A stretch of DNA of 39,908 nucleotides, taken from Spirosomataceae bacterium (GTDB taxonomy: Bacteria; Bacteroidota; Bacteroidia; Cytophagales; Spirosomataceae). The stretch lies in NCBI GenBank assembly GCA_022702045.1, contig JAKONH010000017.1, forward strand, positions 1-39,908, written 5' to 3'. A model generated the notes under the pieces. That model saw only the letters and a list, made by a program, of their open reading frames with translations. It had not been told where the DNA came from and searched no databases. How positions within the stretch are numbered: position 1 is the stretch's first letter; each line of letters opens with the position of its first letter. A program made the position numbers and the translations under genes. Of this stretch, positions 9,765-18,056 are shown piece by piece.

Positions 9765-10697
9765 TTAAGGCCGGAAAATGGTGTTGTTGTGATAGCCAAG
9801 ATGAAGCGACGAAGGCTTATCTTCTTCTAACGACGGTAGCACTGCCAGCGGCTTGCCATGATACTGATAGTACTCTTTGCCGTTGCTAAATTCTTCCCTA
9901 ATGCGGCTACTTACTTCAATTCGGTAGTCAGTCGTTACGGTGATGTAGCCGTCGTCGAATAATTTGTGCATGTCGGAACGTAACAGTAATCCGTTCGACG
10001 TCTGATTGGGTCCTGCTTCTGCAAAGGGCTTGATATGGGCTGCTTCTAGAACGGGCAATGTCTTTTCGCCGGTAATAGCGCAACGCTTCGTATAAACATC
10101 AATGACCGAGAGCCGGAAGGCTCCCTGCTCAATCCTTACTTTCTGTAGAACCGAGTTACCGTATTGCGGTGAAGGCTCGTCAACGCTCGACAGGGTGTGA
10201 TCGACTCGTAAAGCTCTTCGGTAAAGAATTAGCCTATCCTGAACCTGCTGCCACAAAGACGCCCCAATCGCCGTGTCAGTACTGTACCGTTTCCCTTGAA
10301 CAATGCTTGTACTCCAGTCAGCCGGAACAGGTATCCAGTCTTCGCGTTGGAAAAACACCGGATCGGTTAGCGCAATGCACCCAATGGTTGGGTTACGCTC
10401 TTTATCGCCCCGATACTTTTGAATAATCGTCCTGAAGTGGTCAAGGTCAGGTACGCCATTGCGTACGCCAAAAGCGTTCCAGGCGAGTGATAGGGGCAAC
10501 TGCGTTTGTGCTCTAAAGAAACCTAGTCCACCAATAGCGTTGTATGGTGATTTAAGCTTGAGCAGAAATACCCCGTTGAGTGGCAGTACCCGAAACGTAC
10601 TCTTTCCGCCTGGTTGCCAGAAATTAACATCCTCTGGGCTGATCGCACTCAGGTAGTCAAACCAGCTACAATTCGTTACGCCCAGATAAAAATTCAT
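9765..10697 (-). CDS. HNH endonuclease with N-terminal recognition-like domain
   Basis: 310 residues. The C-terminal third holds an HNH nuclease domain (PF13391-like): 'RCAITGEKTLPVLEAAHIKP', then 'NGLLLRSDMHKLFDDGYITV', with C-x2-G, AAHIKP, N-G and H-K-L-F-D as metal-binding and catalytic positions. The N-terminal 200 residues are conserved in this kind of protein ('GVFLLKLKSPYNAIGGLGFF', 'IGCIALTDPVFF', 'WSTSIVQGKRY') and resemble a substrate-recognition module; a PUA/EVE-like base reader is a guess. Such proteins are candidates for restriction of foreign or modified DNA. It is followed by the broken gene at 9323-9727 and preceded by an AT-rich promoter gap. Confidence 0.88.
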   Translation of the reverse strand: MNFYLGVTNCSWFDYLSAISPEDVNFWQPGGKSTFRVLPLNGVFLLKLKSPYNAIGGLGFFRAQTQLPLSLAWNAFGVRNGVPDLDHFRTIIQKYRGDKERNPTIGCIALTDPVFFQREDWIPVPADWSTSIVQGKRYSTDTAIGASLWQQVQDRLILYRRALRVDHTLSSVDEPSPQYGNSVLQKVRIEQGAFRLSVIDVYTKRCAITGEKTLPVLEAAHIKPFAEAGPNQTSNGLLLRSDMHKLFDDGYITVTTDYRIEVSSRIREEFSNGKEYYQYHGKPLAVLPSLEEDKPSSLHLGYHNNTIFRP

Positions 10698-13664: not shown

Positions 13665-13913
13665 CTAGTTCGGGAAGACGGGGAGTGTCGGGAAATAGTA
13701 GACGCGGAAGGTGCCGTTGTCGTTGACAGACCAGCCTTCGCGGAGGGCCACTCGGATCAGCTTTTGCGAAATATCGGCCTGTCGGGCCCAGTACCTCCGG
13801 TGGCGGAGTGCCCGCTTCACGTCCAACGTCGTTGTTACGCCCTGGGCCAGAATCAGGGTTGTGGCCGTCGATCGTACCGATTCCAGCGTTACTTTTTTGA
13901 GGATAGGGTTCAT
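13665..13913 (-). CDS. Small winged-helix-like protein, last gene of the PARP operon
   Basis: 82 residues from ATG 13913, one base after the PARP stop codon (TAA, C, ATG), so almost certainly translationally coupled. A longer reading would start inside the PARP gene. The core 'TTTLDVKRALRHRRYWARQ' followed by 'ISQKLIRVALREGWSV' and 'NGTFRVYYF' fits a compact winged helix: two helices, a recognition helix and a beta wing. Similar short proteins are common in Bacteroidota without a named role. DNA binding is inferred from the shape only. The tight coupling suggests it works with, or controls, the PARP. Confidence 0.78.
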   Translation of the reverse strand: MNPILKKVTLESVRSTATTLILAQGVTTTLDVKRALRHRRYWARQADISQKLIRVALREGWSVNDNGTFRVYYFPTLPVFPN

Positions 13914-13914
13914 G

Positions 13915-15249
13915 TTAGCAGTTGATTTTGACCATATACCGAATCGTACACTGCGCCTGGTTGTAGACAATGAATTCGTTTTTCAATAGGCTGACGCCCC
14001 GCTGCGCGAATACAGAATCGTAGGTTTCGTCGATGGCTTTCAGTTGGTCGGTGTCGAGCCGGGAGTGCCAGCTTTCATGGGTGTCGACTTCAAGCTGTTT
14101 GCCGACGTGTACTTCATAGATCGCCAGGTACCCTTCACGCTGCTTCCCGTTGGCCCAGACCGAACCATGGAGCGATGTGTAGTTCAGTGACTTGCTGAAT
14201 TGGTCGGCGAAATAGATGCCATAGCCAAACATCTTACCCGAAATAATGGCGTTGGCCGGACGTAGCACCAGACCGGTTTTCAGAATGGAAATCCAGTTCT
14301 CGCTCCGGCTACCGTGCCACAATAGCTGCGTTTTCTTATTGGCCTGTCTGGCGACGAAGGTATTAAAGGCGGTTTCCGTATCGTGCTTCGATACACTGAA
14401 GGCCGCATCGAGTTTATCCGCGTCGGTGCCCATCATCAGCTTGATCAGCTTCAGCACACGCGTGTCCGTAATGGGTTCAACCGACAGATTCATCAACGCC
14501 AGCAGATCCGGCTGTTGTACTGGGCCTACATCGTCGGTTTGGTTTAGTTCGACCTGACTGCGCATTACGTCGAGCGTATCCTGTTCACTGGCCAGGCGGT
14601 CGCGCAGCTGCTGAATGGCGTCTTCCGATTGCGGTAATTCCTGAAGCAGGTGCTCGGTTACCCGTTGCATCCGACGCGGGATGATCTTGAACAAGTCCAG
14701 CAGTCGGACGTTGAACGCATCCATATCCAGACCTGCTTTGATCTGAACGGTTAGTTCGTCGATCAGTTGCTGGGCCGAATCGACCTGCTTACGAGTGACT
14801 TGCTCTGCTGTAACGATGTAGTTCTGCCGAATGGACTGGCTAGCCAGTTCAAGCAGTCGCTCCATGAAGGTTCGCACGGCGGTGTTCTGAATCGCGCCGG
14901 CATCGACGGCGGTCGTTGCTTCGGCGAACAGGTGCGTCTGATCGACATAACCCTTGGCAATCTTTTCCCTAAACTTCTTGTCCCACTGACTCATCGGGTA
15001 GGTTGCTACGCTGCTCGTGCCACCGACGCGTCCGTACTGAACGCTGAACGTCTGATTGTCGTGTTCCCGCATTTCGTAGAATTTGTTGTTGTTAGCGGCC
15101 GTAACCATGATCAGCTTGGCGACCCGGTGATGACGTACGGGCAGAGTGGCGGGCGCTGCTATGGTGCCTGTCGACGCTGACGCGATCTGCGCCAGTGCCT
15201 GGCTGGGATTGATGCGGTTGGTTATTGATTGAAGCAGGGCAGGAAACAT
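13915..15249 (-). CDS. WGR-domain poly(ADP-ribose) polymerase (bacterial PARP)
   Basis: 444 residues from the ATG at 15249; a GTG at 15285 would add 12 residues and is less likely. Order of parts: a short linker (1-45), a WGR domain (about 46-120, with 'FSVQYGRVGG', a WGR variant with Tyr, then 'KKFREKIAKGY'), a helical PARP regulatory-like domain (about 125-255, 'DAFNVRLLDLFKIIPRRM'), and the ADP-ribosyltransferase catalytic domain. The H-Y-E triad is intact: H312 in 'LLWHGSR', Y346 in 'GYGIYFADQFSKSLNY', E425 in 'KNEFIVYNQAQC'. In eukaryotic PARPs the WGR domain senses DNA breaks and the enzyme makes poly(ADP-ribose) from NAD+. Glu at the third position supports polymer rather than mono-transfer. 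It sits in a leftward four-gene operon. Confidence 0.94.
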   Translation of the reverse strand: MFPALLQSITNRINPSQALAQIASASTGTIAAPATLPVRHHRVAKLIMVTAANNNKFYEMREHDNQTFSVQYGRVGGTSSVATYPMSQWDKKFREKIAKGYVDQTHLFAEATTAVDAGAIQNTAVRTFMERLLELASQSIRQNYIVTAEQVTRKQVDSAQQLIDELTVQIKAGLDMDAFNVRLLDLFKIIPRRMQRVTEHLLQELPQSEDAIQQLRDRLASEQDTLDVMRSQVELNQTDDVGPVQQPDLLALMNLSVEPITDTRVLKLIKLMMGTDADKLDAAFSVSKHDTETAFNTFVARQANKKTQLLWHGSRSENWISILKTGLVLRPANAIISGKMFGYGIYFADQFSKSLNYTSLHGSVWANGKQREGYLAIYEVHVGKQLEVDTHESWHSRLDTDQLKAIDETYDSVFAQRGVSLLKNEFIVYNQAQCTIRYMVKINC

Positions 15250-15296
15250 AGATGGGGTGGGATGAATGAGAAGGATGGTGTACACATAGTGGCTGG

Positions 15297-15695
15297 TCAG
15301 GCCATCACCTGTTGCAGGGTGCGCAGGCGATTCCGGAAGAAGCCCACGCTTTTCTCGGCAAATCGGCTACGGTCGGCACTGACGTCGTAGGCGTGTCGGA
15401 GCGGATTTGACACGGATACGTAGCGGTCCAGTAGCTCGTACCAGGCAGGACGGTGCTGAAACTGCGTCAGTAACTGCCGACCCCGATTGAGCAGTTTACG
15501 CTGGCGGGGCGTCCAGTCGGATTGATCGAGTGGCGGGGCACACTGACTCAGGAGAACAGGGAGTGCATCGGGCGAAGCAGATGGTTGCAACTGCGATAGC
15601 AGAAACAAACCCAGTTCGACGTCGAGTAACTGCCGTGCCGACAACGTGCCCGGTCTGCGGTTGACTGAAGGTGTAGTGAATGGGGTCGTGTTCAT
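15297..15695 (-). CDS. Small PARP-operon protein, paralogue of the upstream gene product
   Basis: 132 residues, function unknown. The central part, 'LLDVELGLFLLSQLQP', then 'DALPVLL', 'WTPRQRKLLNRGRQLL' and 'RPAWYELLDRYV', aligns closely with the product of 15744-16253 ('LLNIELGLFLLSELLP', 'EALPNLL', 'WTPHQHKMLSRARILL', 'RAVWYSALGKYT'). The shared core is about 80 residues and mostly helical, with a possible protein-interaction surface. No enzymatic motif is seen. It lies 47 bases upstream of the PARP start and 48 bases downstream of its paralogue, all on one strand. Confidence 0.78.
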   Translation of the reverse strand: MNTTPFTTPSVNRRPGTLSARQLLDVELGLFLLSQLQPSASPDALPVLLSQCAPPLDQSDWTPRQRKLLNRGRQLLTQFQHRPAWYELLDRYVSVSNPLRHAYDVSADRSRFAEKSVGFFRNRLRTLQQVMA

Positions 15696-15743
15696 GAGGG
15701 GCGTTGTTTAGTTGTTCAATCAGGGGTAGTGAGTTTACCGTAT

Positions 15744-16253
15744 TTAAGCTAACGCCCAGCCGTAGAGTTGAATGCGCTCACGACGGTCGTAAGAGCTAGC
15801 GTCGGGGTTCTGGCCACCGCGACCAGTCGTAGTGAAAAGGCGGAGGCTTTTGTCCATCGTTGTGTATTTACCCAGCGCGCTGTACCATACAGCCCGATCC
15901 TGATAGGGGGCCAATAGAATCCGCGCCCGGCTCAGCATCTTGTGCTGATGCGGTGTCCAGACGGGGCGCTCGCGGTACACGATGCCCTGCCCGTTGAGCA
16001 GGTTGGGCAGGGCTTCTGCCGGCGCCATCGGTAGCAGTTCCGATAGCAGAAACAAGCCCAGTTCGATGTTCAGCAGACGATTGGCTACTCGTCCCGGTAG
16101 GTTGTGGCGAAACCGCAGTCGCGTGGCCAGCGGCTCCTGCCAGCGCATCAGATGCGATACGGATGCACTAGCCTGCGTCGACGCTTTCGAACGGACAACC
16201 GGTGGGAAACCAGTAGAAAGCAGCGGGGATGGAGTGTGATAAGCCGTTATCAT
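15744..16253 (-). CDS. First gene of the PARP operon, paralogue of the next gene product
   Basis: 169 residues, function unknown. It shares the WTPxQxKxLxRxRxLL core with the 132-residue protein downstream but has a longer, Ser/Pro-rich N-terminus (1-45) and a different tail. The two genes look like a tandem duplication that has since diverged. No signal peptide, membrane segment or catalytic motif is visible. The gene starts at ATG 16253, facing the WYL regulator gene across a 245-base gap that holds two small inverted repeats and a REPIN. Confidence 0.78.
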   Translation of the reverse strand: MITAYHTPSPLLSTGFPPVVRSKASTQASASVSHLMRWQEPLATRLRFRHNLPGRVANRLLNIELGLFLLSELLPMAPAEALPNLLNGQGIVYRERPVWTPHQHKMLSRARILLAPYQDRAVWYSALGKYTTMDKSLRLFTTTGRGGQNPDASSYDRRERIQLYGWALA

Positions 16254-16276
16254 TTGTAGTGTTGTTTAAAATTCAC

Positions 16277-16317
16277 AGAACAAAGTTCTACCCAGCAAAA
16301 CGTAATCTTTTTACGTT
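16277..16317. promoter_or_regulatory. Candidate operators upstream of the PARP operon
   Basis: Two inverted repeats lie 24 to 64 bases before the first PARP-operon ATG. AGAAC-AAA-GTTCT is at 16277-16289, and AACGTAA-TCTTT-TTACGTT at 16299-16317 (perfect 7-base arms). The surrounding stretch to about 16350 is strongly A/T-rich. The facing WYL-domain regulator is the obvious candidate to bind here, by analogy with WYL repressors that act on divergent promoters. The binding itself is inference. Confidence 0.5.
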
Positions 16318-16357
16318 CTTCTTTTTTGGTAAAAATTTTTTCTGAATTTTTGACGTC

Positions 16358-16482
16358 GTAGAGACGCGATCCCTTGCGTCTCCGCACCCGGATGGTCATG
16401 GGCTAACAGCTGACGCGCATAGAAAAAGCTGTCCGGCGATAGAGCCGTCCGGCGGTGAGACGCGAAAGGATTGCGTCTCTAC
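16358..16482. repeat. REPIN B between the PARP operon and the WYL gene
   Basis: GTAG feet are present at both ends. The left arm starts GTAGAGACGCGATCCCTTGC; the right arm mirrors it with a few changes (GAGACGCGAAAGGATTGCGT). The 70-base interior carries CCGGATGG and GCTGACGCG, as in other copies, but is longer and more diverged, with extra GTCCGG and GTCCGGCGG. It ends 16 bases before the WYL start codon and so must lie in that gene's leader or promoter. Confidence 0.88.
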
Positions 16483-16498
16483 AAGTAAAACCATCCCT

Positions 16499-17527
16499 AT
16501 GCCTATAACCCGCTCCGCGTTTCAACGCTATCGCATCATCGACGAGATTATCAGTCGATACCCCCGGCAGTATTCCAAGCAGCGCCTGTTTGAGTTGTGC
16601 CAGGATAAATGCGGCATCCGGTCGATGTCGTCGCTGGAGAAAGACATTCAGCGACTGCGCGAAGACCACGACGCGCCCATTGCCTACGACAAACGGCGTA
16701 ACGGCTACTATTACACCGACCCGCAGTTCCGGCTCCTGCGCCTGATGCTGAGTCCCGACGATATGGAAGCGCTCGACTACGCGCGTGAGGTGCTGACGGC
16801 CACGCAGGGTGCGTCGGTCGCGGGCGAGCTGGCAAACGCGTTGCAGCGCGTCCGGCAAAGCCTCGATATCATCCGGGAAGTAAAATCCGAGCCGATGATG
16901 CGTCGGGTCGTGTACGTAGAGGAGCGGGTGCTGGGTGGTAACCGGCAGTATGTGCCGGTATTGATTCGGGCCATCAATCAGAACCGGCAGATTACGTTTC
17001 GCTACCGGAAGCACGAGATAACCGATACTGAACCTCAGACGCCCGACAAACTACGTACGCTGCACCCGATTCTGTTGCGCGAAGTCGCTGATAGCTGGTA
17101 CGTGATTGGCTACGACGAAATAACAGGAAAGGAACGTACGTTTGCCCTCGACCGGATGAGTGATCTGGATATTTCGCTGGACCTGTGCAGCGTGCCGTCG
17201 GTAGCACTGGACAATGTCAGTGAACTGTTCGAGCACATCTACGGCATCACTGATAGTAGCGGACCGGTTGAGGAAATACTGCTGTCGTTCAGTCCGCTGT
17301 TTGGGCGGTACGTAAAGGCCAAACCCATTCATCAGACGCAGGAAGTCGTGCAGGATACCGACGATGCTTGTGTCGTTCGGCTGCGACTGGCTCCTAACCG
17401 AGATCTGTTGATGCATCTGCGTTCGTATGGTGAACACCTGACGGTCGTAAAACCCGATAGTCTGGTGCAGGCCATGCAGGAGTCGTTGCAGGCAACCTTA
17501 CAGCATTATCAGCAACCCGAACAGTAA
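16499..17527 (+). CDS. WYL-domain transcriptional regulator
   Basis: 342 residues. The N-terminal 75 residues form a winged helix-turn-helix ('RYRIIDEIISRYPRQYSKQR', then 'SLEKDIQRLREDHDAPIAYD' and the wing 'RRNGYYYTDPQF'). A WYL domain follows (about 140-230): 'LIRAINQNRQITFRYRKHE' and 'WYVIGYDEITGKERTFALDR', where WYV stands for WYL. The C-terminal WCX-type extension runs to the end. Proteins of this kind sense nucleic-acid or nucleotide ligands and often control phage-defence or DNA-damage operons. It points away from the PARP operon and is followed after one base by the next gene. An autorepressor controlling both directions is the simplest model. Confidence 0.92.
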   Translation: MPITRSAFQRYRIIDEIISRYPRQYSKQRLFELCQDKCGIRSMSSLEKDIQRLREDHDAPIAYDKRRNGYYYTDPQFRLLRLMLSPDDMEALDYAREVLTATQGASVAGELANALQRVRQSLDIIREVKSEPMMRRVVYVEERVLGGNRQYVPVLIRAINQNRQITFRYRKHEITDTEPQTPDKLRTLHPILLREVADSWYVIGYDEITGKERTFALDRMSDLDISLDLCSVPSVALDNVSELFEHIYGITDSSGPVEEILLSFSPLFGRYVKAKPIHQTQEVVQDTDDACVVRLRLAPNRDLLMHLRSYGEHLTVVKPDSLVQAMQESLQATLQHYQQPEQ

Positions 17528-17528
17528 G

Positions 17529-18056
17529 ATGGTCACCTTTACGGCAACGCTCCGCAAGTTTGGCGCAAAAGGAGAGAAAACTGGATGGACCTATATCGAC
17601 GTGCCCGCTGCTGTCGCTGAGGTGCTAAACGGTGGGCCGAAGAAAGCGTTTCGGGTGAAAGGCAGGCTGGATGATTTTGCTATCCAGCAGGTGGGGCTTG
17701 TGCCAATGGGGGCGTCTGCCGAGCCCGACGAAACCGGTGACAAAGCTCCGTACATCCTCGCGATCAACGCCACTATGCGCCGGGAACTTGGCAAAGAAGC
17801 GGGCGCTATCATACAAGTCGAACTGGAACGCGACGAATCCGAACTGTCGCTGTCGGAAGACTTGCTGGTCTGCCTGGCCGACGCACCCGATGCACGGGCG
17901 TTTTTCGAGACACTACCACGCGGTCATCAGCAGTATTTTAGTAACTGGATCGACAGCGCGAAGACGATACCAACCCGTGAAAAGCGGCTGAGTCAGGCTA
18001 TTGCAGGTTTGTCGATGAAGCTGGGCTACGGCGACATGATTCGCCATTTTAGGTAG
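17529..18056 (+). CDS. DUF1905 / YdeI-OmpD-associated family protein
   Basis: 175 residues. An N-terminal DUF1905 beta-barrel-like domain (about 1-100: 'FTATLRKFGAKGEKTGWTYI', 'AFRVKGRLDD', 'LAINATMRRELGKEAGAIIQ') is followed by the YdeI/OmpD-associated helical segment ('ARAFFETLPRGHQQYFSNWI', 'TREKRLSQAIAGLSMKLGYG'). The family is widespread and has no well-defined biochemical role. It starts one base after the WYL stop codon, so the pair is an operon. Its TAG stop (18054-18056) lies inside the GTAG foot of REPIN C. Confidence 0.9.
   Translation: MVTFTATLRKFGAKGEKTGWTYIDVPAAVAEVLNGGPKKAFRVKGRLDDFAIQQVGLVPMGASAEPDETGDKAPYILAINATMRRELGKEAGAIIQVELERDESELSLSEDLLVCLADAPDARAFFETLPRGHQQYFSNWIDSAKTIPTREKRLSQAIAGLSMKLGYGDMIRHFR

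Follow-up and report, generated by a model that had tools for sequence, protein, structure and literature searches.

A locus encoding a poly(ADP-ribose) polymerase (PARP) with a WGR domain was analyzed in a stretch of 39,908 nucleotides (the window) that makes up one whole contig, JAKONH010000017.1, of an 83% complete Spirosomataceae genome assembly (GCA_022702045.1). This locus is probably the home of a small regulon of Spirosomataceae that is controlled by a WYL-domain protein, responds to DNA damage or to invading DNA, and employs, as an accessory effector, the PARP together with a small partner that we denoted X. The evidence comes from an inverted repeat, located between the WYL gene and the facing operon, that recurs across the family at a fixed distance from a presumed promoter and accompanies genes of the locus that have moved elsewhere. 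Leftward from position 16253, the operon encodes two paralogous proteins with the pPIWI_RE_Z domain (Z2, then Z1), the PARP, and X; facing it are the genes for the WYL protein and for a DUF1905-OmdA protein:

13665..13913, minus strand: X, 82-aa protein of a winged-helix family, the usual PARP partner (start ATG 13913; family profile)
13915..15249, minus strand: WGR-PARP, 444 aa (Pfam PF00644 and PF05406; alignment of 16)
15297..15695, minus strand: Z1-type stand-alone pPIWI_RE_Z protein, 132 aa (PF18155, E 1.3e-14; assigned to Z1 by its LSARQLLDVELGL stretch)
15744..16253, minus strand: Z2-type stand-alone pPIWI_RE_Z protein, 169 aa (PF18155, E 6.8e-18; predicted model)
16281..16284, minus strand: TTTG, 16 nt past the operator core (promoter phase)
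16300..16316, minus strand: candidate operator, inverted repeat ACGTAA-AAAGA-TTACGT (repeat search; alignment of spacers between WYL and Z genes)
16499..17527, plus strand: WYL-domain regulator, 342 aa (WYL and WCX; Pfam), divergent from the Z/PARP operon
17529..18056, plus strand: DUF1905 and OmdA (YdeI-like) protein, 175 aa (Pfam)

The candidate operator

The spacer between the WYL and Z genes contains a 15-bp inverted repeat, CGTAAAWAGRTTACG, whose two arms measure 5 bp (often 7) and flank a 5-bp center. For comparison, 66 regions around Z or PARP matches were fetched from a sample of 200 genomes of the family, making 67 regions with the window. The WYL gene is divergent from a Z gene in 56 of the 67, and the 11 regions without such a pair, among them the PARP regions L044 and L059 and the weak match L060, were excluded from the spacer set. 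The repeat is present with at most two mismatches in 54 of the 56 WYL/Z spacers, in 44 of them exactly. No repeat was found at two mismatches in L042, and L055 was missed through misassignment of an open reading frame, its genome (G116) having exact sites.

The 67 regions contain 74 exact sites (71 after removal of near-identical copies), and at every one TTTG follows the core at a distance of 15-16 nt, a motif expected from base frequencies in about 2% of cases for a four-position window. We interpret the TTTG of the window as the terminal part of a -7 box of the Bacteroidota type. The exact operator was found in 51 of the 56 Z-bearing genomes of the family sample, against 3 of the 144 Z-less ones (Fisher p 6e-38, kinship not corrected), with the reversed pattern yielding 13 matches in 12 of the 200 genomes as the background level. 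Exact sites are present in 35 of 36 Spirosoma genomes, where the reversed pattern had no match, and the assembly of the window contains one exact copy of the core. The inverted-repeat operator near a promoter that marks WYL regulators of defense and damage genes can thus be predicted here at the level of sequence.

X was set aside as the reader of the repeat and appears unlikely in this role because genomes G026, G068, and G089 retain exact sites without any X match genome-wide. Z1 is also an unlikely reader, given that G016 and G026 keep the site with a single Z match each, of the Z2 type. The predicted operator is most likely read by the WYL protein.

Genes behind the operator elsewhere

Genes of the locus that are found at other positions keep the repeat. 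Displaced Z2 genes are preceded by an exact copy in L036, L046, and L095 and by one with a single mismatch in L041; the displaced PARP-X pair of Fibrella aquatilis (L113, identical to L044) is preceded by the repeat with one mismatch; and the repeat also stands ahead of the solitary X genes of G002 and G038, neither of which has a PARP match. In addition, a second copy often lies ahead of Z2. The original prediction that the genes form one system gains support, at the level of sequence, from this tendency of the operator to accompany the Z, X, and PARP-X genes when they lie apart.

Among 41 sites distant from the locus, the next gene lies on the same strand at 37; TTG occupies the offset typical of TTTG at 27 and is one position closer at another 6 (33 of 41). 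A Wadjet operon in G131, with JetA, JetC, and JetD identified, is preceded by the repeat, as is a pPIWI-RE island of Spirosoma fluviale (L110, 14531-21331) that encodes a restriction endonuclease (REase), a Z-DinG fusion, and a PIWI protein whose gene is cut by the sequence end. In this island, the REase gene begins about 40 bp past the site, and the island itself lies about 2.3 kb downstream of a Z1-PARP-X-Z2 locus. Other genes behind distant sites encode a DEDDh exonuclease (L163; L175 by BLAST) and GNAT, RibD_C, AraC/DJ-1, and SLT proteins. Apart from L180, itself a Z locus, no other WYL gene matching the profile was found in the distant regions, so that a single WYL regulator plausibly acts in trans.

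The arms are perfectly palindromic over 10 bp or more at 8 of the 41 distant sites, and over 12 bp or more at 6 (examples of such sites are L151, L178, L181, and L185). The outer arm sequence varies from site to site yet stays complementary, perhaps forming a hairpin or cruciform. Z2 and a long Z-fusion gene are about 13 kb apart in G164.

The PARP-X unit

A pattern scan of a genome collection (84,980 species) yielded 46 named PARP loci. X accompanies the PARP in all 19 loci from Spirosomataceae, 17 of which also include Z and WYL, the exceptions being L113 and the short contig L140, where both are missing. In the 27 loci from other taxa, Z or WYL was found in none, as judged by Z, X, WYL, and DUF1905 profiles that were built from Spirosomataceae and that distant relatives can escape, several contigs also being short. 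X was found in 19 of the 26 of these loci that could be judged and was missing from 7 (L118, where the contig ends at the PARP, was set aside). The original prediction had treated WGR-PARP homologs in relatives without any of the small proteins or the WYL gene, combined with a lack of response to DNA damage or phage, as counting against it; such homologs are the rule outside the family as far as Z and WYL are concerned, with X mostly retained. Because PARP outside the family occurs without Z or WYL yet mostly with X, the tight unit appears to be PARP-X, with Z, WYL, and DUF1905 as its local setting.

In an order-level sample of 390 genomes, 48 genomes have X, 42 have PARP (G727 and G760 being under the Pfam cutoff and both without X), and 37 have both (Fisher p 2e-36, kinship not corrected). 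In 29 of the 37 genomes, X immediately follows PARP on the same strand; in the other 8, the two are not adjacent. Tree distances of PARP and X correlate (r 0.86 over 24 loci).

In six relatives, X forms the start of a protein of 287-321 aa, in which Pfam detects a WGR domain after X above the cutoff in L115, L117, and L144 and below it in L146, with none in L126 and L134. The predicted model of the L115 fusion (mean predicted local distance difference test, or pLDDT, of 95.5) showed a winged helix at residues 6-75 (Z-scores of about 8-10 to many winged helices) and a WGR domain at residues 81-148 (Z-score of 11.9 to 2ra8 over 68 residues, root-mean-square deviation of 1.3). For the C-terminal part of this protein (about residues 150-315), a region barely covered by the comparison, there was no trusted structure match. 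The X domain of the fusion aligns with the X of the window, which by this modeled fold belongs to a winged-helix family. Two X copies were observed in L143, L102, L103, L065, and L078 (3 of the 27 loci with a full PARP; 2 of the 19 two-Z loci without PARP).

The WGR-PARP

The enzyme matches PF00644 (E 3.7e-28; 98.8 bits against a cutoff of 26.7) and, through a WGR domain of the YGR form, PF05406 (E 1.5e-5; 25.4 bits against a cutoff of 22). It consists of a conserved N-terminal stretch, a linker, the WGR domain, a helical-looking middle part, and an ADP-ribosyltransferase (ART) domain with H312, Y346, and E425. The best start is ATG 15249 rather than GTG 15285, given that most full-length relatives open with a similar M[LF]xxLLQ-like stretch. 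H312, Y346, and E425 are invariant in 16 aligned relatives and line up with the WHGSR, IYFAD, and NEYIVY stretches of human PARP2; H-Y-E is the catalytic triad according to the triad passage of PMC5966428. A WGR-PARP with an intact triad, as first proposed, is therefore what the window encodes. The best matches among solved structures were PARP2 and PARP1, and the closest named PARP, from Spirosoma oryzae, is 89% identical, on which basis the window is assigned to the genus Spirosoma. Pfam did not report the PARP_reg helical domain in the window PARP, in which a conserved stretch is present between the WGR and ART domains.

Four short PARPs (L061, L072, L074, and L088) are without this intervening stretch, two of them also without WGR. 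Their frames are still open between Z1 and X, and they are possible pseudo-enzymes, to judge from their sequences. Erasers of ADP-ribosylation, stated to be missing from the window, were also not found in its 83% complete assembly; this does not extend to Spirosoma at large, with macrodomains in 23 of 36 genomes and ADP_ribosyl_GH proteins in 31.

The stand-alone Z proteins

The small paralogs, initially described as not recognized, both pass the Pfam cutoff for PF18155, the match spanning positions 5-117 of the 167 in the profile. Z1 and Z2 are 32% identical and are the only Z matches in the genome of the window. Across the phylum, Z was found in 3 of 395 genomes, all three from Spirosomataceae. 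In the window, Z is not joined to a DinG helicase with REase and PIWI genes alongside; the Z proteins there are 132 and 169 aa long.

The predicted Z2 model is mostly helical (mean pLDDT of 80.8). A Foldseek search against the PDB with this model gave no match (best E 2.5). VIA-align placed SlyA (twice), RovA, and MexR as the top four (Z-scores of 6.2 to 4.5), the best row having a root-mean-square deviation of 4.0 over 101 residues; Z-scores below about 13 are weak for helical models. SlyA, RovA, and MexR presumably belong to the MarR family.

Locus layout and its conservation in Spirosomataceae

The layout of the original prediction, a WGR-PARP operon facing a WYL gene and a DUF1905/OmdA gene, was recovered with all six genes. 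X, described at first as winged-helix-like, starts one base past the PARP stop, and the DUF1905 gene starts one base past the WYL stop. The WYL protein matches PF13280 (E 5.3e-14) and PF25583 (E 8.3e-13), and the protein encoded downstream, YdeI-like as claimed, matches PF08922 (E 1.7e-15) and PF13376 (E 1e-14). Each of the six genes is under purifying selection (dN/dS of 0.04-0.10 against L063, an S. oryzae contig), and these values, along with the recurrence of the layout in relatives, indicate that the gene set is more than chance.

In the family sample, Z was found in 56 genomes, including all 34 Spirosoma genomes, and PARP in 34, of which 32 also have Z. The gene-order check called for at the outset gave a split answer, the WYL/Z locus being kept within the family and only X staying with PARP outside it. 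The 56 WYL/Z loci comprise 27 with a full PARP, 4 with a short PARP, and 25 with none. X is present in 42, namely in all 31 with PARP and in 11 without it. The usual order is Z1-PARP-X-Z2 facing WYL, instead of which the window and S. oryzae have Z2-Z1-PARP-X. Members of the DUF1905 BLAST cluster are found in 32 of the 67 regions, and there are weak DUF1905 matches in L120 and L129 (14 and 36 bits). Distances in the PARP, X, Z, and WYL trees correlate with one another (r 0.65-0.86) despite repeated changes in PARP content, so that loss of an old PARP member seems likelier than repeated import.

Ten representatives of flanking gene clusters were a TonB receptor, an SDR protein, an amidase, an aldo/keto reductase, PriA, an SSF transporter, and ankyrin, URO-D, and PIN proteins, with one having no match. 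An HNH_2 endonuclease-like protein is encoded at 9765-10697 of the window, minus strand (PADLOC HNH, E 1.2e-21).

Retron neighborhoods and mobility

In the Saprospiraceae locus L117 (5197-13757), genes for HEAT, SWIM, PARP, X-WGR, and reverse transcriptase (RT) proteins are collinear. The RT and SWIM proteins match PADLOC models of retron type XIII, from which the retron names used here were taken (E 5e-154 and 4e-166); L144 encodes a type XIII RT (E 1e-154), and L115 contains the same clusters, by BLAST only. L144, L115, and L146 are likewise from Saprospiraceae. In L146, a SWIM gene is present, no RT was found next to it, and a gene for an Hcp-like protein of the type VI secretion system lies between PARP and X. 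The genome of the window has its own retron XIII genes on contig C129, with no PARP beside them, and its sole PARP match is that of the window. This retron (L150, 5821-14022) encodes WGR_XIII (1061 aa), a second WGR protein (479 aa), SWIM_XIII (547 aa), and RT_XIII (495 aa).

No Z2 match was found in 72,556 plasmid records. Distant PARPs occur in 20 plasmid records (25-28% identity among the matches listed) and in 15 phage records (30-36% identity among the matches listed).

Proposed mechanism and alternative explanations

In the regulon that we consider probable, damage or invading DNA would expose single-stranded DNA, the probable signal of the WYL protein by analogy with DriD, PafBC, and SiwR, which, in the source passages on them, respond to single-stranded DNA and genotoxic stress. 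The WYL protein would most likely bind CGTAA-N5-TTACG, immediately ahead of the -7 box, and thereby switch the Z/PARP operon along with a few distant promoters; the fixed phase of the operator near the -33 region would suit either activation or repression. The WGR domain, of a kind that binds DNA in PARPs (a passage of PMC5966428), would dock on broken DNA and switch on ADP-ribosylation, and X, produced from the same transcript, could place the PARP on DNA or on its target. Z1 and Z2 may act as adaptors of helical structure, using a module that also occurs with the DinG helicase in pPIWI-RE systems. We infer the identity of the regulator, the signal, the activation by DNA ends, the target, the role of Z, and the outcome (repair or defense), and lean toward a mixed damage/defense response.

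Several observations weigh against this regulon. PARP is dispensable, being absent from 25 of the 56 WYL/Z loci, and the WYL tree requires at least 12 gains or losses of the full PARP. X was not found in 7 of the 45 named PARP loci that could be judged, and the triad tyrosine is replaced in the four short PARPs (by H in L061 and L072 and by R in L074 and L088). At distant sites, the promoter phase is less strict, with TTTG in place at 9 of 41, and the first downstream gene at 15 of the 31 distant Spirosoma sites encodes a metabolic-looking VOC/glyoxalase protein (assigned by BLAST clusters, with three members tested by Pfam). Only one of three long Z-fusion loci has a site, L183 and L056 being without it; a defense island was rejected, the ten representative flanking clusters looking ordinary; and Z2 is an alternative reader of the repeat. 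The stress or defense role first suggested for the locus is a hypothesis that gains from the pPIWI-RE, Wadjet, and DEDDh exonuclease genes behind the operator, VOC genes being the commonest others.

Some of the same facts would suit a housekeeping DNA-repair PARP, as in eukaryotes, that is controlled by a general genotoxic-stress regulator and has no role against phages. The presence of Z in every sampled Spirosoma genome, the ordinary flanking genes, the strong purifying selection, the prominence of VOC genes among the other operator targets, and the radiation resistance ascribed to Spirosoma montaniterrae (PMC10036542) are all consistent with it; the repeated loss of PARP while the Z/WYL core stays and the company of pPIWI-RE, Wadjet, and retron XIII are not, and we regard this explanation as rather unlikely. 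It is quite improbable that PARP and X form a toxin-antitoxin or abortive-infection pair, with PARP draining NAD or modifying a vital target and X restraining it. Such a pair would account for the tight pairing and order of the two genes and for PARP-X inside a retron XIII operon, but 11 of the 56 WYL/Z loci retain X in the absence of PARP, X stands alone in G002 and G038, and PARP occurs without X in seven named loci. Moreover, X joined to WGR in relatives suggests joint work of PARP and X on DNA, and X as an antitoxin only was set aside on these grounds.

The repeat could also be read by Z2 or by the Z pair, the Z proteins then being MarR-like DNA binders, as the SlyA, RovA, and MexR matches of the Z2 model would have it. 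This appears improbable in view of the weak VIA-align scores, the Foldseek result, and the dispensability of Z1 in G016 and G026, and given that BrxR, a WYL regulator, binds repeats of this spacing (a passage of PMC9122601). A neighborhood maintained by descent alone, with a shared promoter and no common pathway, is very improbable: the variable gene order (Z1-PARP-X-Z2 in most loci) speaks for it, and the repeats kept by displaced members speak against it. Tentatively, and with more doubt than conviction, the regulon can be placed in a wider frame, in which PARP-X is a portable effector for DNA end-sensing ADP-ribosylation that was plugged into different immune systems of Bacteroidota, namely retron XIII in Saprospiraceae and the WYL/Z regulon in Spirosomataceae; X, either by itself or with a further WGR domain attached, would be its dedicated partner, and the WYL/Z regulon could also command pPIWI-RE and Wadjet.

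Comparison with known systems

Passages of PMC4245714 list Spirosoma linguale, Fibrella, and Fibrisoma among PARP-bearing taxa and call the function of bacterial PARP1-like enzymes unknown; X, Z, WYL, and an operator are absent from these passages, although no search of that paper was aimed at them. A text search of PMC5966428 found no mention of 'operon' or 'genomic context', and the main text of PMC10036542, a paper on radiation resistance, had no match to PARP, WYL, or ADP-rib. No paper joining WGR-PARP, X, Z, WYL, and the operator was found in the open-licence literature, which is not proof of novelty. In these literature searches, no earlier description of the PARP-partner pair was found, and the type of regulon, WYL-controlled damage or defense genes, is already known. 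With this locus, a bacterial PARP in a group with culturable relatives gains X as its customary partner, the WYL protein as a likely regulator, a candidate operator of exact sequence, and other genes that this operator precedes, and the pPIWI_RE_Z domain gains an existence apart from its helicase. Because the same operator precedes some defense genes in relatives of the window bacterium, the findings point to a shared emergency response.

HPF1 is a partner protein of the eukaryotic PARP1 and PARP2. The PARP fold and the presence of a partner are common to these enzymes and the window locus, where the partner X is a predicted winged-helix protein; any functional parallel is speculative. Among bacterial enzymes, the WGR-PARPs of Cytophagales clade 1.1, as described in passages of PMC5966428, resemble the window PARP in having WGR and ART domains, H-Y-E, and no regulatory domain detectable by Pfam. 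The three-gene pPIWI-RE system shares with the locus the Z domain, which is largely helical and N-terminal to the DinG helicase in that system (a passage of PMC3702460) and takes the form of two free-standing paralogs in the window. WGR proteins are common to the locus and to retrons of type XIII, and PARP-X(WGR) lies in such retron loci in L117 and L144 by PADLOC and in L115 by BLAST cluster; in contrast, a scan of ten proteins encoded at 9.8-19.3 kb of the window revealed no RT or SWIM protein, and the genome has its own retron (L150) on a different contig. The closest parallels for the regulatory part are BrxR, PafBC, DriD, and SiwR, which, according to the source passages, likewise combine a WYL domain with control of genotoxic-stress or defense genes. 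BrxR, moreover, binds inverted repeats with a 5-bp spacer ahead of defense genes (a passage of PMC9122601), the same architecture as that of the candidate operator. By their descriptions, the window locus is set apart from these four by its own repeat sequence, its divergent Z/PARP operon, and the fixed phase of the repeat relative to TTTG.

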